Of a stretch of DNA of 64,000 nt, positions 3,442 to 12,481 are shown piece by piece. The DNA lies in the NCBI RefSeq assembly GCF_000516515.1, contig NZ_KI911784.1:124001-188000 (forward strand). The letters run 5' to 3'. The stretch is from Chloroflexus sp. Y-396-1. GTDB taxonomy: Bacteria; Chloroflexota; Chloroflexia; Chloroflexales; Chloroflexaceae. The notes below the pieces were generated by a model, which was given only the letters and a program-made list of their open reading frames with translations, was not told the DNA's origin and ran no database searches. The first letter of the stretch is position 1; every line of letters starts with the position of its first letter. A program made the position numbers and the translations under genes.

Positions 3442-3975
3442 TCAACGACGACGCAGTAATTGCTCAACGGTACTTGCCAGCGCATCTATCTGGGCATGGA
3501 GCCGTTCAACATCATTGCGCGTCGGCACATTTGCAATACGATCAGCAAGTTGATGACGAGCGTCGTCAGCAAACTCTTTGCGTAATAACAGTTTGCGCCA
3601 GCGATCAGCCTCTTCGGGGGAAAGTTCACCCTTGTCAACCAAAATATCGATACGCCGTCCAATTTCAGCTTCAATCAAGTCGTCACCGCCAAGCGAACTA
3701 AACAGCACCCGGCGCAAGTTGGAAATCGTATCTCCCCCAACCTGGATCAGGTCGGTCAGCAAATTGGTTGGCAACGGTGATCTGCGTCCACGAGCCTGCA
3801 ACACAACCTGCGCCAGAATATTCGCAGTAATATCATCACCGGTTTCGTTATCAAGCACCTGGACCGTTTCGCCCTCTTGGATGAGGCGAGCAATGCCGTC
3901 AAGCGTAATGTAACGTTTCTGATTGGTATGATAAAGTTTCCGATTTGCGTACTTCTTAATCAGGTGCATAGCCAT
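3442..3975 (-). CDS. phaR: polyhydroxyalkanoate synthesis regulator (PhaR-type)
   Basis: A 178-residue protein with the N-terminal PHB/PHA accumulation regulator domain (KKYANRKLYHT...YITLDGIARLI, residues about 5-30, continuing to about 65). In characterised bacteria this family binds both DNA and PHA granules and represses phasin genes when no granules are present. The C-terminal third ends in NVPTRNDVERL followed by a leucine-rich amphipathic helix, a pattern also found in the phasin (4994) and the PhaE-like protein (24350). ATG 3975 was chosen because AAGG lies 5 nt upstream; a longer frame adds 19 residues without family likeness. Its promoter shares a 14-bp motif with the phasin promoter. 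Confidence 0.85.
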   Translation of the reverse strand: MAMHLIKKYANRKLYHTNQKRYITLDGIARLIQEGETVQVLDNETGDDITANILAQVVLQARGRRSPLPTNLLTDLIQVGGDTISNLRRVLFSSLGGDDLIEAEIGRRIDILVDKGELSPEEADRWRKLLLRKEFADDARHQLADRIANVPTRNDVERLHAQIDALASTVEQLLRRR

Positions 3976-4073
3976 TGCCACCTTGTACCGGGTGCTGGTA
4001 TGATGCGTGCGCAGTGATGTTCCCAGCAACAATCATTTGGTAAGAACACGAAAAGCTAACAATCTCAGCAGCA

Positions 4074-4104
4074 ATTATAACACGCTGCGCCAAAATACCG
4101 ACAA
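4074..4104 (-). promoter_or_regulatory. phaR promoter with candidate PhaR operator
   Basis: Read on the minus strand there is a perfect -10 box TATAAT (4074-4079). A weaker TTGTCG (4099-4104) sits 19 bp upstream. The stretch 4074-4091 matches 5575-5592 in the phasin promoter at 16 of 18 positions, with CGCAGCGTGTTATA identical over 14 bp. The match covers the -10 box and part of the spacer, where a repressor would block RNA polymerase. Autoregulation by PhaR is an inference. Confidence 0.6.
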
Positions 4105-4308
4105 CAACGATCAATCTGACGAAGCACCACGTCAATCTTAGGGAAGGGTGATTTAGGGGAGGGTGAGGGGCCTAGATGCACGGCGTCGCAATATGCTGTA
4201 GAAGATTATCAGGCACCGGCCTGAACTGGGTTTTACCCGATCACATCAGGACACGGAGCAGAGAACCGCGTTCCAGGGTCACAGGCGTCTATTCCTGACA
4301 CACCCTAA

Positions 4309-4880
4309 GAGCGTGATCAAAAACCTGGATTTCTCATAAGGCTCGTACCGTGTATCTGCGACCATTGCGTTCGGGGGCCAACGTTCTATTCCGCCATCCG
4401 CCGTATGTTCCTTCTGCCGAGCGGGCAGCGCCAGGCGCTGCGCTTAACGGGTTGGGTGAACGAACTTCACCTCGTCCCCTCACGTTTCCCCCTTCCGCTC
4501 CCCGTGGAGGAACGGAAGGGGGCCAAGGGGAAGGTGAGGGGCATTATCCCCCCTTTCGCTCCCCGTGGAGGAGCGGAATGGGGCTAAGGGGAAGGTGAGG
4601 GGGCACCATCCCCCCTTTCGCTCCCCGTGGAGGAGCGGAATGGGGCTAAGGGGGAGGTGAGGGGGCACCATCCCCCCTTCCTCTCCCGCACTGCGGGAGA
4701 GGAAGGGGGTTGGGGGGAAGGTGAGGGCCATCAGGCGTGCGCCGCAGCACTGGCCCCGTAACCGTTGCACCCCTGTTCCGGCGCGTCGCGGAGCCGCATA
4801 CGGTACACCATCGTTCCTCTGACCATGATAGCGATGTCATGGTCAAGTCCCATCAAAAGCCCAAGTTTTTGATCATGCTC
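4309..4880. mobile_element. MITE-like element, family 1, copy A (572 bp)
   Basis: The ends are inverted repeats: GAGCGTGATCAAAAAC on the left, and GAGCATGATCAAAAAC when the right end is read on the other strand. The element is flanked by a TAA direct repeat (4306-4308 and 4881-4883). The first 110 bp closely resemble copy B at 29210. The interior (4488-4731) is an array of four GC-rich hairpin modules. No transposase frame is present, so it is non-autonomous. A 3-bp TNA target duplication with GAG-starting ends is known from parts of the IS5 family; this assignment is inference. Confidence 0.75.
4488..4731. repeat. array of four GC-rich hairpin modules inside copy A
   Basis: Four units of about 60 bp, each a palindrome around CCGTGGAGG or CGCACTGCGG, followed by a G-rich stretch and AAGGTGAGGG. 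The second and third units are almost identical. The same module recurs at 43800, 51050 and most densely at 55887-56467. Confidence 0.8.
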
Positions 4881-4919
4881 TAAGGTAACTACCAGATGAC
4901 CACCTTTTCATCATGATGT

Positions 4920-4946
4920 GGGCGAAGGAATAACCTCCCTTCGCCC
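4920..4946. terminator. hairpin, possible terminator
   Basis: A perfect 9-bp stem (GGGCGAAGG / CCTTCGCCC) with a 9-nt loop lies downstream of the phasin gene. There is no convincing T-run on the minus strand, so termination of the phasin transcript is only possible. Confidence 0.3.
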
Positions 4947-4993
4947 CTTTCGTGTACGATGCAGTGTGCCATCAAGTAGTGCATAGCAGGTTG

Positions 4994-5470
4994 CTACTTC
5001 TCGGCGCCCTCTTCCTTTGCCTCACCCCGCGTGCGGTTGCGAGCGGGCGTCTCCTGAGCCCGACGGAGCTCTTCTACACGCAAGGCCAACTGAGCAATCT
5101 TGGCGCTTAGCTCATCAATGTCACGTTTGGAAGGAATGTTGAGCCGATTAAGAAATTGCTCAAAGCTGGTTTCAAACTGGGCCGCCAGATTGTTCAGATT
5201 GGTCTGTACCTGATCCGACTGTGGCATAGCCGTCTTGCGGAAGCTCTCCATTGCCTCCTCAAACAGCTTCTGGGCGTCTTTCTGGGCCAACTCACCACGC
5301 TCAACTAGCCGATTCAGGAAGGCTTCCGCTTCTTCACGGCTGAGCGCAAAAGCGCCAATGCCAGCCAGTATGAGCTTACGAACGATCTCAAACACCTGGA
5401 CACTCGGATTGACGGGTGGCTTCTCGTCGATTTGGCGGACATTGACCTCAATTTCTTCTACAGTCGTCAT
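4994..5470 (-). CDS. phasin, PHA granule-associated protein
   Basis: A 158-residue helical protein of the poly(hydroxyalkanoate) granule-associated family. Phasins coat PHA granules and control their number and size. Residues 25-75 form amphipathic helices containing FEIVRKLILAGIGAFALS and an EEAEAFLNRLVERGELAQ stretch typical of the family. The C-terminal third has NIPSKRDIDEL followed by a heptad-like coiled coil and a charged tail. AGGAGG lies just upstream of ATG 5470. It stands alone behind a strong promoter that carries two copies of the candidate PhaR site. It belongs functionally with phaR (3442) and the synthase operon (24350-26844). Confidence 0.85.
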   Translation of the reverse strand: MTTVEEIEVNVRQIDEKPPVNPSVQVFEIVRKLILAGIGAFALSREEAEAFLNRLVERGELAQKDAQKLFEEAMESFRKTAMPQSDQVQTNLNNLAAQFETSFEQFLNRLNIPSKRDIDELSAKIAQLALRVEELRRAQETPARNRTRGEAKEEGAEK

Positions 5471-5887: not shown

Positions 5888-7150
5888 TTGCCCGCGGATG
5901 GAATGAAGTGCAGCAATCCGGGCATTATTACACACTGCATTGGCAGACGCGGTACGACGAGGAGGATCACTATCGAACCGCCGACCCGCTCAACAGCCGA
6001 AGAAAATCTACGCGCCATCGTTAGTCATGATGCTGACGGAGCAATCATTGTTGATAGCAGTGGCGTGGTGCGGTTTTTAAACAGTGCCGCTGAACGTCTT
6101 CTTGATCGCCATGGCGCTGAACTCCATGGGCAAGTTTTTGGCTTTCCGCTGGTGGTCGGTGAACGAGCGGAAGTTGAAGTTTTGCGTCCAAACGGTGAAT
6201 TTGCGGTCGCCGAAATGAGGGTCTTGTCGATTGTTTGGGAAGGACAGGATGCACTGCTCATTACCCTACGCGATGTTACCTTTGAGCGTCAGGCCGAAAC
6301 AGCCTTACGCGAGGCGGAAGAGTTTAGTATTACCATTCTCAATTCGCTGACGAATGAAATTGTTGTCCTTGATGAGCAGGGTAAGATTGTGGCAGTGAAT
6401 GAGGCCTGGCTGCGGTTTGGGCGCGAGCACGGCATTACCGATCTGGCTGCGATCAGTGTGGGAGCTGATTATTTTGCTGCCTGTGCGGTAGACAAAACGT
6501 TAACCGGTGGCATAGATGTACTGCAAGGGTTGCAGGATGTATTAGCAGGGAATAAAGAGGAATTTTCCTGCGAGTATGAACTCCCTACCTCAGCCGGAAC
6601 ACGCTGGTTCGCCCTGCGTGCGGTGCCGCTACGCGGGAAACGACGCGGTATTGTCATTTCTCACACCGACATTACCGAACAACGGCGAGCAGCGCAGCTC
6701 GCTGCCGAAGCTGAAATGCTACGCGAACAGGTACGACAGATGGAGCGCGAGCTGACCAATGTTGATGCGCTCTCGCGACCCGAAGATGCAGTACGTTCGC
6801 GTTTGAGTTCACTACGCCAGCGGCTGCCCGAGGTCTTCGAGTATGCGTTGCATCGCTATGGATCACTGTTAGATGAAGCACTGCAAAGTCGGATTCATCG
6901 TACCCAGTTGCCACCGCGTGCATTACGTGAATTGGGTGAATTTCTCGGTTCCGGATGGGCCACCCCACGCGATCTGATCGATATTCATTTGCAGGCTATC
7001 CGGCAGCGGAGCGCACAGAGTCCACCGAAAAAACTACAAGCCTACGTTGAAGAGGGCCGTTTACTTTTGCTAGAATTAATGGGACATTTAGCATCATTTT
7101 ATCGATCACTTGCGATTGGTGAATTAGCTTCTCGTCCTCCAGAGCAATAG
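5888..7150 (+). CDS. PAS-PAS protein with KaiA/RsbU-like C-terminal domain
   Basis: About 420 residues from TTG 5888 (ATG 5903 also possible; neither has a clear ribosome site, while a strong GAGGAGG lies further down at 5958-5964 before an ATC codon). Residues about 38-140 and 145-275 are two PAS domains (ALLITLRDVTFERQ and GIVISHTDITEQR mark their ends), followed by a short coiled coil. There is no kinase, GGDEF or HTH domain. Residues about 303-410 are helical, with LIDIHLQAI (His367) in the middle and HLASFYRSLAI at the end. This order resembles the KaiA C-terminal and RsbU N-terminal domains (one structural superfamily). It sits 37 bp before kaiB. A KaiA-like regulator of KaiC is my inference. 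Confidence 0.7.
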   Translation: MPADGMKCSNPGIITHCIGRRGTTRRITIEPPTRSTAEENLRAIVSHDADGAIIVDSSGVVRFLNSAAERLLDRHGAELHGQVFGFPLVVGERAEVEVLRPNGEFAVAEMRVLSIVWEGQDALLITLRDVTFERQAETALREAEEFSITILNSLTNEIVVLDEQGKIVAVNEAWLRFGREHGITDLAAISVGADYFAACAVDKTLTGGIDVLQGLQDVLAGNKEEFSCEYELPTSAGTRWFALRAVPLRGKRRGIVISHTDITEQRRAAQLAAEAEMLREQVRQMERELTNVDALSRPEDAVRSRLSSLRQRLPEVFEYALHRYGSLLDEALQSRIHRTQLPPRALRELGEFLGSGWATPRDLIDIHLQAIRQRSAQSPPKKLQAYVEEGRLLLLELMGHLASFYRSLAIGELASRPPEQ

Positions 7151-7187
7151 CAGAAGCTCACAAGCTGGCTGCTGGGATGAAGGGACT

Positions 7188-7493
7188 GTGAGTAAAATTG
7201 TTTTGCATCTCTACATTGCCGGTCAGACACCACGCGCTGAACGAGCGATTAACACGCTACGCCAGATGCTAGAACACGATCTGGCCGGCTATGAATGTGA
7301 ACTGACAATTATTGATGTGTTGGCCGATCCACAGCAGGCAGAAGATCAAAAAATCCTGGCAACACCGACTCTGATAAAGAGTTCGCCACCGCCGTATCGA
7401 CGGGTTATTGGCGATCTATCGAGTGTTGTCGATCTCCTAAATGTACTGAATTTGCCGCCAAAGACAGGTTCATCAATGATAAACAAGGAGTAA
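7188..7493 (+). CDS. kaiB: circadian clock protein KaiB
   Basis: A 101-residue KaiB, the usual length. The start VLHLYIAGQTPRAERAI gives the thioredoxin-like beta strand and helix. LATPTLIK and PPPYRRVIGDLS are the conserved segments in the region that switches fold in cyanobacterial KaiB when it binds the KaiC CI ring. GTG 7188 follows AAGGGA. It lies 37 bp after the PAS-PAS gene and 4 bp before kaiC, so these genes are almost certainly cotranscribed. In organisms lacking kaiA, KaiBC pairs are thought to act as hourglass timers or in stress responses; which applies here is open. Confidence 0.95.
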   Translation: MSKIVLHLYIAGQTPRAERAINTLRQMLEHDLAGYECELTIIDVLADPQQAEDQKILATPTLIKSSPPPYRRVIGDLSSVVDLLNVLNLPPKTGSSMINKE

Positions 7494-7497
7494 TCAG

Positions 7498-9030
7498 GTG
7501 TGCGCTGATCACATCGAACGTCTGCCAACCGGGATCACCGGTTTTGATCATATTGCCAACGGTGGTTTACCGAAAGGGCGCACAACCCTTGTTTCGGGCA
7601 CCGCTGGCAGCGCCAAGACAGTCTTTGCTGCCCAGTTTCTGGCTGCCGGTATTAAACGAGGCGAGCCAGGTGTGTTCGTCACCTTTGAAGAGACACCCGA
7701 AGCACTGCGCCGCAATATGCTCGGCTTTGGCTGGGATATTGCCCGCTGGGAGGCAGAAGGGAAATGGGCGTTTGTCGATGTTTCGCCACAACCTGAAGAG
7801 GAGATCGTTGAACTGGGTACTTACGATCTGGGTGCATTGCTGGCGCGAATCGAGCATGCGGTACGCAGCATCGGTGCCGTTCGCCTTTCGCTCGACTCGC
7901 TTGGGGCAATTTTTACCCGCCTGAACGATACGCGGGTGGTACGCAACGAGTTGCTTCGGATTGTCAGTACCCTCCGTCGTCTCGGTGTAACGGCAGTGTT
8001 AACTGCCGAACGAACGCAAGAGTATGGTGAGATCGCTCGCTACGGTGTGGAAGAATTCGTCTCTGACGACGTGGTGATTCTGCGCAACTTGCTTGAAGAT
8101 GAGAAACGACGACGCACGGTTGAGATTCTCAAGTTCCGTGGTACGTCTCACCAGAAAGGCAGCTTTCCCTTCACCGTCATTCCCGGCGAAGGTATTCATG
8201 TGATTCCTCTGTCGGCAATTGAGCTGAAGCAACGCTCCTCAAACGTCCGTACAACCTCTGGGAATGCCGAACTGGATCGAATGTGTGGCGGCGGTTTCTT
8301 CCGCGATTCCATTGTATTGGTGAGTGGCGCAACCGGTACCGGTAAGACGCTGATGGCAACCACCTTTATGGCAGCCGGGGTACGCCAGAAAGAACGCTCC
8401 CTGTTGTTTGCGTTTGAGGAGAGTCGTGATCAACTCTTCCGCAATGCTATCGGGTGGGGGATCGATTTCGAGCAGATGGAACGCGATGGTCTCTTGCGGG
8501 TCGTCTGTAATTACCCCGAAGTGACCAGTCTTGAAGATCAGTTGATCTTTATGAAAGCGGAAATCGAGCGCTTTCGACCGCAGCGGGTGGCCGTTGATAG
8601 TCTGTCAGCCCTCGAACGTGTCTCGACAGTGAAGGGATTCCGCGAGTTCGTCATTGGGCTGACCTCGTTTATCAAGCATCAAGAGATGGCAGGCCTCTAT
8701 ACCTCAACGACCCCTACGCTGCTCGGAGGTTCATCTATCACCGAAGCCCATATTTCGACGATTACCGACTCAATTATTCTGTTGCGTTATGTTGAGCTAT
8801 TCGGGGAGATGCGTCGCGGATTAACGGTCTTGAAAATGCGTGGATCGAGCCATGACAAAGATATTCGCGAGTTTACCATCGATAGTCGTGGGATGCACAT
8901 CGGCCGACCATTCCGCAATATCTCCGGTATTCTGTCGGGCCAGTTCACGCATATTGCACCGAGTGAGATTGAACGGTTAAGCGCAATGTTCCGTGATGAG
9001 GAAGGGACGGAAACAGCGGAAACGAACTAA
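7498..9030 (+). CDS. kaiC: circadian clock ATPase/kinase KaiC
   Basis: A 510-residue double-domain RecA-like ATPase. CI has a P-loop GTAGSAKT (Lys40; the usual Gly before Lys is Ala) and catalytic glutamates FEE (64-65). CII has GATGTGKT (Lys283) and FEE (307-308). The autophosphorylation segment ITEAHISTITD keeps all three known sites: Thr415, Ser420 and Thr421, matching Thr426, Ser431 and Thr432 of the Synechococcus protein. The C-terminal HIGRPFRNISGILSG corresponds to the A-loop segment that KaiA binds, followed by an acidic tail. GTG 7498 has AAGGAG upstream. Autokinase and autophosphatase activity is expected from these residues. Confidence 0.96.
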   Translation: MCADHIERLPTGITGFDHIANGGLPKGRTTLVSGTAGSAKTVFAAQFLAAGIKRGEPGVFVTFEETPEALRRNMLGFGWDIARWEAEGKWAFVDVSPQPEEEIVELGTYDLGALLARIEHAVRSIGAVRLSLDSLGAIFTRLNDTRVVRNELLRIVSTLRRLGVTAVLTAERTQEYGEIARYGVEEFVSDDVVILRNLLEDEKRRRTVEILKFRGTSHQKGSFPFTVIPGEGIHVIPLSAIELKQRSSNVRTTSGNAELDRMCGGGFFRDSIVLVSGATGTGKTLMATTFMAAGVRQKERSLLFAFEESRDQLFRNAIGWGIDFEQMERDGLLRVVCNYPEVTSLEDQLIFMKAEIERFRPQRVAVDSLSALERVSTVKGFREFVIGLTSFIKHQEMAGLYTSTTPTLLGGSSITEAHISTITDSIILLRYVELFGEMRRGLTVLKMRGSSHDKDIREFTIDSRGMHIGRPFRNISGILSGQFTHIAPSEIERLSAMFRDEEGTETAETN

Positions 9031-9069
9031 ACCGCCGTTCCATACAACGTGGGTACGAGGAGGCTGTTC

Positions 9070-11631
9070 GTGCAGCACGAAGATAGTGAAGTCGATCAAA
9101 CATCACACGCTGATGATCGTTCATGGTCGAGTCTGGATCAGCAGACATTGCAGACGATTGTCGCTCACAGCACGAATGCTCTGCTCGTACTTGATCAAAA
9201 TGGGTATGTTCTCTTCGCGAATCGGGCCGCCCAGCGACTGTTCGGTCGTCGGCCCGATCAGTTGGAGGGCAGCCCGTTCGGTTTTCCCCTGCAACCCGGT
9301 TTAACCGTTGATGCCGAGATTGTCCGCCCCGATCAGTCAGTTGTGATTGTTGATCTGCGCGTCGAGCCGATAGAATGGCAGGGTTCATCGGCTATGCTCG
9401 CCGTGCTGCACGATATTACCGAGCGTAAACAAACCGAACAGTTTCTCATCGAAACACAACAGTTACTCCATTCAGCACTTGACGCACTGCCATCTGCCAT
9501 TGCAATCCTGAATCGCTATGGGCAAGTGCTGGCAGCAAACGTTGTCTGGCTGCAATTGGGACCTTTATTGGGTGTTGAAAGCGCTGATTGTGCAGTGGGT
9601 GCGTCATTTTTGGCTGCCTGTCATTTAGGTCAGCAACCTGCAGGGATGATTGCCAGTACGATTGAACGGTTGTTGAGTGGCAGTGACGAGCGTTTTGAAG
9701 GTGAATTTGCGGCCGCAGGTGATGAGAAACGTTGGCTAACGGTGCGTGCTGTGCGGTTTGGGTACAATGAACGGATACGGGTGGTGATCACGCTGGAAGA
9801 TGTTTCCGCTCGTCATCGAGCCGAACAGATCGCGGTAGCACGCCGTCGTGTTCTGGAGATGATTGCCCGTCAGTACAATCTAAAGACAATTATGCGCGAG
9901 TTGCTCGTGTTGATCGGGCAGCAGATGGTTGATCTGACGTACGGCGCCTTTACACTCCTCTCGCATGGTTTATTTGTCAGCTTCAGCACCGTACTCGAAA
10001 CAGCCGAGCTGCAACAATTTGATGCATGGGCGCATGAGGTGCTTTCATTGGCGCCGTGCCGGTATCAACGCATCACCGAGCTAGCTCCTGATACACCATA
10101 TTGGTGGTCTTCGGTTGAGCCGCTTGTCTGCAAGTACACTATCAAACGAGGTTGGATTATCGGGATACGAACAAACCGCGATGCGGCCGATGGGTGTCTA
10201 TTGCTATGTCGGCGGGAAGATACGCCGTTAAGTGGCGATGAACGACGTCTGCTTGAGCAGATTGAACAATTGACGACTATCACAATTGAACAGCAGACGA
10301 CGCTGGAAAAGCTGGCGTATCAGGCTCATCACGATGCACTTACCGGATTACCAAACCGATTATTGTTCGAGGATCGATTGCAGCAGGCTATCGAACACGC
10401 TCGGCGCACAAATACGCTGGTGGCAGTGCTCTTTATCGATCTGGATCGTTTCAAACAGATCAATGATACGCTAGGCCATACGATAGGTGATCTCCTGTTA
10501 ATTCAAGTGGCGCGCCGGTTTGAATTGTGCATTCGAGCAACCGACACCTTAGCCCGCCACGGTGGTGATGAGTTTTTACTGGTGCTGCCTGATATTACCG
10601 CGCCACAGCAAGTGACCGTCGTGGCACAGCGTTTGCATGAATCGCTCAGGCATCCCTTTTTCGTCAATGGACACGAGATCTTTGTCAGTGCCAGTATCGG
10701 CGCAAGCCTCTACCCAATTGACGGTAAGGATGTGGTTGCATTACAACGCGCCGCCGATATTGCGATGTATCGGGCAAAACAGATAGCCTACGATCGCTTT
10801 CAATTTTTCGATGCAACGCTTGCTGTTATCTCATCTGAACGTTTACAGCTCGAAACCCAGCTACGTCATGCTATTGAACGCAATGAACTTCTCCTCTTCT
10901 ATCAGCCGAAGGTTGATCGAACCGGCTCCCTGGTTGGTTTAGAGGCTTTGTTGCGCTGGCACAGTGCTGAGCTGGGCACGGTATCGCCCGCAAAGTTTAT
11001 TCCCATTGCCGAAGAGACCGGTTTGATCGTACCGATTGGCCGATGGATTTTGCACGAAATTGCTCGCCAGGTTAAACACTGGTTGGAGGCAGGCCTGCAC
11101 GTAGTACCGGTCGCTGCAAATGTTTCGGCTATTCAATTTGCTCAAACCGATTTTGTTCAACAGGTCGAGGATATTCTTAGCACGGCTAATCTGCCATTGC
11201 CATGGCTTGAACTGGAAGTTACTGAGAGTATGCTGATGGGGCAGATCGAGAATCTCATTCAGCAGCTTAACCGACTCCGTCAGCTTGGCGTGACGCTGGC
11301 AGTTGATGATTTCGGTACCGGTTATTCGTCACTTACCTACCTCCACCGGCTACCAATCAACATCCTCAAGATCGACCGGTCATTTGTTGCTTGCCTTGAT
11401 CGGGCTGACTCAGAGGTTGAACGAAGTTTGGTGGAAACCATTATTACGTTGGGGCGCCGCCTTAGGATGCAGGTAGTCGCTGAAGGGGTTGAGACCGCAG
11501 AGCAATACCAGATACTGGAAGCAGCCGGTTGTGATATATTTCAGGGGTATTATATCGCCCGTCCACTATCGGTTGCAGATGTGGTAGCCTGGATGAAAAA
11601 GGAGCGCAGCGGTGCTGCGCCCTACCGGTAA
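9070..11631 (+). CDS. PAS-PAS-GAF-GGDEF-EAL cyclic di-GMP protein
   Basis: An 853-residue protein. Two PAS domains (about 25-125 and 130-255) are close relatives of those in the first kai-cluster gene. A GAF-like domain follows (about 260-405), then GGDEF (motif GGDEF at 498-502, with RATD, an inhibitory I-site, 5 residues before it) and EAL (EAL at 625-627; later DDFGTGYSS, KIDRSF and EGVE are kept). Both catalytic sites look intact, so it may make or degrade c-di-GMP depending on input. GTG 9070 was chosen because AGGAGG lies 6 nt upstream; a start 21 bp earlier would precede it. It lies 39 bp after kaiC, and is probably an output of the clock. Confidence 0.92.
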   Translation: MQHEDSEVDQTSHADDRSWSSLDQQTLQTIVAHSTNALLVLDQNGYVLFANRAAQRLFGRRPDQLEGSPFGFPLQPGLTVDAEIVRPDQSVVIVDLRVEPIEWQGSSAMLAVLHDITERKQTEQFLIETQQLLHSALDALPSAIAILNRYGQVLAANVVWLQLGPLLGVESADCAVGASFLAACHLGQQPAGMIASTIERLLSGSDERFEGEFAAAGDEKRWLTVRAVRFGYNERIRVVITLEDVSARHRAEQIAVARRRVLEMIARQYNLKTIMRELLVLIGQQMVDLTYGAFTLLSHGLFVSFSTVLETAELQQFDAWAHEVLSLAPCRYQRITELAPDTPYWWSSVEPLVCKYTIKRGWIIGIRTNRDAADGCLLLCRREDTPLSGDERRLLEQIEQLTTITIEQQTTLEKLAYQAHHDALTGLPNRLLFEDRLQQAIEHARRTNTLVAVLFIDLDRFKQINDTLGHTIGDLLLIQVARRFELCIRATDTLARHGGDEFLLVLPDITAPQQVTVVAQRLHESLRHPFFVNGHEIFVSASIGASLYPIDGKDVVALQRAADIAMYRAKQIAYDRFQFFDATLAVISSERLQLETQLRHAIERNELLLFYQPKVDRTGSLVGLEALLRWHSAELGTVSPAKFIPIAEETGLIVPIGRWILHEIARQVKHWLEAGLHVVPVAANVSAIQFAQTDFVQQVEDILSTANLPLPWLELEVTESMLMGQIENLIQQLNRLRQLGVTLAVDDFGTGYSSLTYLHRLPINILKIDRSFVACLDRADSEVERSLVETIITLGRRLRMQVVAEGVETAEQYQILEAAGCDIFQGYYIARPLSVADVVAWMKKERSGAAPYR

Positions 11632-11639
11632 CGTGTATG

Positions 11640-12443
11640 CTATCGGTCACGCTGCACCGCTGCTTTCAGCAAACGCCAGATCGCGCGATGACGCGGCATC
11701 ACCTCAAATACCTGCCCATTCTTCCCTTCACGGACAATGCGTAGCGCCAGGGCTGCTGTCTCTTCGGCAGTTGTACCAAAGATGCGGAGCACTCGTGGTA
11801 ATTGCTTGATCGCTTCTCCGCCAGGGCCAACCGTCTCAAAATGGTTGATCATATCGGTCGGTACCATACCAGGAGTGAGGACGTTGAAGCGTAAATAGGG
11901 GTGATCCTGGTAATCACGGGCGAAGGCTTCGGTGAGACGAACAATAGCGGCTTTAGAGGTGCTGTAGGCCGAGAGAAAGCGCTGGGCGCGCTTTGCCCCA
12001 CCACCAGAGAGATTAATAATCTGACCATTCCGCTGCCTGATCATATAGGGTAATGCAGCACGACAACCGTAGTAAGTACCGAGCAGATTCACCCGGATCA
12101 CCTGTTCCCAGGCCTCAGGTGGCACATCGAGGGCATAGCCAAACGGCCCGGAAATTCCGGCATTGTTGACCCACAGATCGATGCGCTCCATCCGTTCAAC
12201 TGCCGCTGCCGCCAGAGCTTCGACTTCTGCACGATGGGAGACATCACAGCGGATACCGCTGACGTTTAATCCGGCAGCCTGCAAGTCCCGCTCAGCTTCG
12301 GCAAGGTTGCTGGTATTGGCCGATGAGATAATGACCTGCGCACCGGCACGGGCTAGCGCTTCAGCAATAGCACGACCAATGCCACGGCTACCACCGGTAA
12401 CGACGGCTTTCAGATTGCTTAAGTCGGTACGAGTACGAGCCAT
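11640..12443 (-). CDS. short-chain dehydrogenase/reductase
   Basis: A 267-residue NAD(P)-dependent oxidoreductase of the SDR family. It has TGGSRGIGRA near residue 18 (nucleotide binding), NNAGISG (structural), and the catalytic Ser...YSTSK. SANTSN after the second strand suggests NADP preference. ATG 12443 follows GAGAGGAAG and was preferred to a start 7 residues upstream. It converges with the c-di-GMP gene with only 8 bp between stops. The substrate is not predictable; the family also includes sugar, steroid and acyl-CoA reductases. Confidence 0.85.
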   Translation of the reverse strand: MARTRTDLSNLKAVVTGGSRGIGRAIAEALARAGAQVIISSANTSNLAEAERDLQAAGLNVSGIRCDVSHRAEVEALAAAAVERMERIDLWVNNAGISGPFGYALDVPPEAWEQVIRVNLLGTYYGCRAALPYMIRQRNGQIINLSGGGAKRAQRFLSAYSTSKAAIVRLTEAFARDYQDHPYLRFNVLTPGMVPTDMINHFETVGPGGEAIKQLPRVLRIFGTTAEETAALALRIVREGKNGQVFEVMPRHRAIWRLLKAAVQRDR

Positions 12444-12481
12444 AACTTCCTCTCTCGCATACAACAGACGGTTGCAATTGG

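Follow-up and report, generated by a model that had tools for sequence, protein, structure and literature searches.

How does a Kai timer outside cyanobacteria receive its input, and through what does it deliver its output? A window of 64,000 nucleotides from Chloroflexus sp. Y-396-1 (C1:124001-188000 of the 4.89 Mb single-contig chromosome) places candidates for both ends within one compact and conserved four-gene cluster of anoxygenic phototrophs. The list of open reading frames (ORFs) gives four, all on the + strand: gene 1 (5888-7150; 420 aa as an ORF), a PAS-PAS protein with a KaiA-like end; kaiB (7188-7493; 101 aa); kaiC (7498-9030; 510 aa, two ATPase domains); and gene 4 (9049/9070-11631), a PAS-PAS-(divergent GAF)-GGDEF-EAL protein. 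The ORF of gene 4 can open at 9049, though in the start regions of eight Chloroflexus genomes GTG 9070 is preceded by AGGAGG 7 nt upstream and GTGCAG is kept in relatives. This GTG is very probably the start, and the gaps are therefore 37, 4, and 39 bp, in agreement with an earlier reading made from the sequence only, which had described a same-strand cluster with these gaps. We consider it probable that a tandem PAS has here taken the place of the receiver in a kaiABC cluster of the KaiA3 type, and that the cluster is coupled to a bifunctional cyclic di-GMP (c-di-GMP) enzyme with its own, diverged version of this tandem PAS.

The first question is whether gene 1 encodes a KaiA. Pfam recognizes two PAS domains in its product (PAS1, of the GFPLVVGE...EVLRPNGE type, 5996-6274; PAS2, 6335-6679), followed by a C-terminal domain (6785-7117), the KaiA identity of which could not be settled by sequence alone. 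An hhalign comparison of this domain with two KaiA sequences gave a weak match (P=0.0065) that kept the register and outscored the reversed controls. Foldseek with the full-length protein returned only PAS structures among the matches listed, the best being DosP; therefore, the C-terminal domain was modeled alone from 36 homologues (pLDDT 84.7) and compared with 350,542 PDB chains. Several PDB entries of KaiA C-terminal domains were retrieved by this model, at probabilities of 0.92-0.99 (1q6a, 0.99; 5jwr, 0.96-0.99; 1r8j, 0.97; 1v2z, 0.96, with a TM score of 0.71 on this KaiA chain as target), and KaiA was the only family with a probability above 0.9 among the matches listed. The fold call rests on probabilities and TM scores because the Foldseek E-values exceed 0.1. 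Judged from this model, the domain is a KaiA-type helical bundle of the KaiA/KaiA3 superfamily.

Independent support for the KaiA identity comes from co-occurrence in 400 Chloroflexota genomes, 24 of them Chloroflexaceae. A full-length kaiC is present in 33 genomes and the KaiA-like domain in 34, with 32 shared (Fisher P ~1e-44, ignoring kinship). One KaiA-like match (G026) was discarded as an artefact, being antisense to a metabolic gene, which leaves one genome with kaiC only and one with the KaiA-like domain only; the former holds a lone, altered kaiC, with no kaiB on its contig. The KaiA-like gene adjoins kai genes in six families.

The sequence-only reading had held that classical kaiA is not expected outside cyanobacteria, and that here a PAS protein replaces KaiA. 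Both points call for amendment. KaiA3 orthologues (receiver plus KaiA) have been reported in Chloroflexus and Roseiflexus, along with kaiA3B3C3 synteny outside cyanobacteria, to which C. aggregans was named as an exception (PMC11372060, 2024), and gene 1 itself contains a KaiA-type domain; it is the KaiA3 receiver domain that the PAS pair replaces.

The partners of such a KaiA appear largely intact. KaiB scores 77.8 bits against a cut-off of 27 for PF07689 (E=5e-22), and falls below both NCBIfam KaiB equivalog cut-offs. KaiC is recognized by Pfam (E=2e-114), by TIGR02655 (630.6 bits, cut-off 546), and by PRK09302 (735 bits), and shares 57% identity with the KaiC in PDB 8zn6. It retains the catalytic glutamates of CI and CII and the phosphosites (motifs FEE, FEES, and SIT..HIST), as well as a canonical CII P-loop (GATGTGKT). 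The phosphosites had been placed correctly at Thr415, Ser420, and Thr421; their codons (8740-8760) correspond to T426/S431/T432 of S. elongatus. The A-loop (RPFRNISGILSG) and C-terminal tail, together RPFRNISGILSGQFTHIAPSEIERL, lie at 8905-9027, are conserved across Chloroflexota, and form the KaiA-binding region in cyanobacteria. A second, unlinked kaiB was seen elsewhere in the chromosome (L061:9922-10224; G000:C1 near 2969921-2970223), flanked by a REC-PAS-GAF-like gene on one side and a PAS histidine kinase gene on the other, where it may possibly serve a separate KaiB-dependent pathway.

At the other end of the cluster, Pfam finds two PAS domains (module at 9148-9828), a GGDEF domain (10324-10782; E=4e-51), and an EAL domain (10858-11565; E=5e-72) in gene 4. 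Thus, the domains claimed from the sequence (PAS-PAS, KaiB, KaiC, and PAS-PAS-GGDEF-EAL) were recovered, with the exception of the GAF, which is undetected in the window's protein, although 6 of its 13 orthologues show one (as GAF_2, at best E=1e-7). The GGDEF domain keeps its A-site (RHGGDEF) and I-site (RATD), and the EAL domain its catalytic motifs (EALLRW, NVSAIQF, EVTES, DDFGTGYSS, KIDRSFV, and AEGVE), from which we predict that both may be active. The genome encodes ~14 GGDEF and 3 EAL domains, and a domain search of the whole genome returned no PilZ or MshEN receptor of c-di-GMP. The suggested connection with the Tad and polysaccharide genes, and so with pili and polysaccharide, was set aside as unsupported, given this absence and a distance of more than 24 kb.

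What ties gene 4 to gene 1 is the sensor. Searched against its own genome, the PAS-PAS block of gene 1 is found in exactly two places, gene 1 itself and gene 4, where the identity is 33% over ~235 aa (E=4e-37). In a family-wide tree, the modules of the two genes form separate groups (support 92/81 for gene 1 and 97/99 for gene 4); therefore, the duplication or sharing is older than the genera of the family. PAS1 and PAS2 are each 28-48% identical to the PAS domain of histidine kinases linked to kai in other Chloroflexota, the PAS1 type occurring in such kinases of other Chloroflexota and the PAS2 type in those of Roseiflexaceae, and these PAS types therefore seem to travel with kai clusters. 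A more tentative proposal, to which we give less than even chances, is that genes 1 and 4 encode a pair of sensors derived from one duplicated module, such that one and the same signal, or else a hetero-PAS complex, would set both the phase of the timer and the level of c-di-GMP. If true, KaiA would here possess a genuine small-molecule sensor, and the Kai system would be connected to a second messenger, not to a two-component output. A literature search found no description of the receiver-to-PAS-PAS swap or of the exclusive flanking PAS-PAS pair; the sensor swap in KaiA and the sensor exclusive to the two genes that flank kaiBC would, on sequence comparison, be the new parts of a cluster that is otherwise partly known.

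The sequence-only reading had named a lack of conserved gene order among the findings that would refute it; it withstands this test, as the order gene 1, kaiB, kaiC, gene 4 is present in ~20 of the 24 Chloroflexaceae genomes (in G094 it is split over two contigs). These include all eight Chloroflexus genomes and genera g2, g3, and g5, that is, g1, g2, g3, and g5 of the family. Among the eight, one has its last gene cut by the contig end and one has a stop in kaiB. The in-frame stop in kaiB of G198 (L075:9307-9309, SSPPP*RRVIGD) leaves the rest of the frame intact and reflects either a pseudogene or an assembly error. Of the remaining Chloroflexaceae genera, one has receiver-KaiA, kaiB, and kaiC with a PAS histidine kinase, and another has none of these. 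In f3, the Roseiflexus-like family and the other kai-bearing family of the order, the arrangement is PAS histidine kinase, receiver-KaiA, kaiB, kaiC, while more distant families have receiver-KaiA (or a KaiA with another N-terminus), kaiB, and kaiC, then mostly a PAS histidine kinase.

One genome of genus g6 (G347) carries a fused receiver-PAS-PAS-KaiA ORF upstream of kaiBC (L089:10168-12474), apparently a link from KaiA3 to the PAS-PAS-KaiA form. In a tree of KaiA domains, the kai-linked PAS forms and this fused form make up one group (93/92), apart from the receiver forms. On these two grounds we propose, as a likely path, that a PAS-PAS was inserted into a KaiA3-like gene, that the receiver was then lost, and that the histidine kinase was exchanged for the GGDEF-EAL protein. 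The cluster shows that KaiA can exchange its N-terminal sensor (pseudo-receiver, receiver, receiver-PAS-PAS, or PAS-PAS), and suggests a route by which this happened. An additional, unlinked receiver-KaiA (~300 aa, 85-100% identical) is present in six of the eight Chloroflexus genomes (e.g., L047:3434-4306 and L050:8197-9111); in G230, for example, the complete four-gene cluster is accompanied by a receiver-KaiA copy that lies apart, at a distance of 0.3 Mb. G118 and the window's genome lack the unlinked protein, and both have the PAS-PAS form only. A plasmid search for relatives of the receiver-KaiA gave only receiver-domain matches, and the plasmid-borne kaiC genes examined in other phyla lie in contexts that lack an evident KaiA-like gene or are unannotated.

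Comparison with known systems helps to place the cluster. Among the closest is KaiA3-KaiB3-KaiC3 of Synechocystis sp. PCC 6803, which likewise has a KaiA-type C-terminal bundle on a signaling N-terminus, encoded just upstream of kaiB, and the three genes form a cluster in most bearers, as here (PMC11372060). KaiA3 has a NarL-type receiver where gene 1 has PAS-PAS, however, and no GGDEF-EAL gene has been described in the kaiA3B3C3 cluster (PMC11372060), whereas the Chloroflexus cluster has one. Canonical KaiABC of S. elongatus shares the A-B-C gene order, the KaiC phosphosites, catalytic glutamates, and A-loop, KaiB, and the KaiA bundle fold, but its KaiA has a pseudo-receiver N-terminus, its outputs are SasA, CikA, and RpaA, and the sequence of the KaiA-type domain of gene 1 has diverged beyond the reach of the Pfam KaiA model. 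A study from 2011 described kaiBC with an adjoining GGDEF/EAL or histidine kinase gene, and the first of its kaiC contexts shares with ours a PAS-bearing GGDEF/EAL protein directly downstream of kaiBC, although in that text Chloroflexus is not named and no KaiA-like gene is described in the GGDEF/EAL kaiBC context (PMC3164672). DosP, the oxygen sensor of E. coli (PAS-PAS-GGDEF-EAL), has a tandem PAS fold like that of gene 1 and the domain order of gene 4, but its PAS-A binds heme and it is not known to be linked to Kai proteins.

The mechanism that we propose starts from what the analysis showed, namely the gene order and its conservation, the fold of the KaiA domain and its co-occurrence with kaiC, the intact KaiC, GGDEF, and EAL sites, and the exclusive sharing of the PAS-PAS module. 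By analogy with KaiA and KaiA3, the dimeric KaiA bundle of gene 1 would bind the KaiC tail, pull out the A-loop, and promote phosphorylation at Thr415, Ser420, and Thr421. The PAS pair may alter this KaiA activity in response to a metabolic, redox, or oxygen-related signal, and KaiB, as in its family, would bind phosphorylated KaiC and counter KaiA. These first steps are made plausible by Synechocystis, in which KaiA3 stimulates the phosphorylation of KaiC3 in vitro and KaiB3 works against it (PMC11372060). Least certain is the output: the GGDEF-EAL protein might sense the same kind of signal via its own PAS pair, touch the Kai proteins, or both, so that c-di-GMP would be set in step with the timer.

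Several results weigh against this reading and should be kept in mind. The Pfam KaiA model (PF07688) has zero matches in the genome and in the 36 homologous domains, the best Pfam trace of the domain is a sub-threshold match to RsbU_N (E=0.013-0.08), a hidden Markov model (HMM) of the 36 domains did not retrieve KaiA from the PDB sequences using HMMER, and the Foldseek E-values for KaiA, 0.16 and up, are not significant alone. In KaiC, the CI P-loop reads GTAGSAKT (SGTAGSAKT, 7594-7620, residues 33-41), with Ala where Gly normally precedes Lys; this Ala is common to nearly all Chloroflexota kaiC examined. Two Chloroflexaceae genera (G347 and G375) have PAS-PAS-KaiA, kaiB, and kaiC with no adjoining gene 4, and intergenic gaps reach 226-270 bp in some relatives, for which reason co-transcription is not certain everywhere. 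The best PDB match of the HMM was a 67-residue SHERP chain (E=0.008), which we judged to be a chance helical match.

The alternative that fares best shares the wiring of the favored reading and differs in its dynamics. A rhythm of the Chloroflexus Kai system would be expected by analogy with known Kai systems, yet it is an even call whether the cluster is instead a non-oscillating hub, an hourglass or switch in which KaiA, gated by its PAS pair, would make the phosphorylation state of KaiC report current metabolism, with no self-sustained timing. The KaiBC system of R. palustris has been described as a proto-circadian timer (PMC4794148) and the in vitro cycling of KaiA3-KaiC3 is damped (PMC11372060), both of which fit a hub; however, the KaiA-type domain, KaiB, and the KaiC phosphosites, A-loop, and tail, which are all the parts of a cycle, are conserved together.

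Less likely, though deserving of attention, is that gene 4 is an input and not an output, with environment-driven c-di-GMP tuning the Kai timer and no output of the clock running via c-di-GMP. In S. elongatus, the level of c-di-GMP alters the clock in phase, period, and amplitude (PMC13001216; reported 2026), and the cluster offers a testable tie of a Kai system to this messenger. A sensor module common to genes 1 and 4 would suit a common input, and the finding of neither PilZ nor MshEN in the genome also speaks for this alternative. To our knowledge, however, no c-di-GMP binding site has been described on Kai proteins, and in other Chloroflexota the position of gene 4 is held by a histidine kinase, which in cyanobacteria is the usual kind of output (SasA).

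It is improbable that the C-terminal bundle of gene 1 is an RsbU_N-like adaptor for some other partner (e.g., a serine kinase of the RsbT kind), unrelated to KaiC. RsbU_N is the sole Pfam trace, and the N-terminal domain of RsbU has the same type of four-helix bundle, a fold common to KaiA and RsbU_N (PMC11372060); but RsbU_N is fused to a phosphatase and has RsbT as its partner, whereas gene 1 has no phosphatase domain, the fold search returns KaiA and not RsbU among the matches listed, and the near-perfect co-occurrence with kaiC comes with gene adjacency in six families. Least credible of all is that the four genes are neighbors with no common function, retained by chance in a slowly rearranging family: gaps of 100-270 bp in some genera and the lack of a gene 4 beside kaiC in two would allow it, but the order is kept though the PAS modules are only 44-49% (gene 1) and 30-41% (gene 4) identical to those of the window, the g2 and g5 loci keep the four genes while the flanking SDR, ArsA, and FolD genes were not found beside the cluster, and the PAS-PAS module is confined to genes 1 and 4.

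The start of gene 1 should be recorded with caution, since conservation begins only near residue 30. No convincing ATG or GTG was seen at the conserved N-terminus in the start regions of the eight Chloroflexus genomes. At 5960-5977, an AGGAGG is followed 6 bases later by an ATC, and ATCGA is conserved in all eight; a rare ATC start is therefore possible, the alternative being ATG 5903. The cluster is an isolated directon because the genes on both sides run the opposite way, a phasin gene before it (4994-5470) and an SDR gene after it (11640-12464). The phasin gene lies with a PhaR-like regulator gene at 3442-5470, on the opposite strand upstream of the cluster, both belonging to polyhydroxyalkanoate granules.

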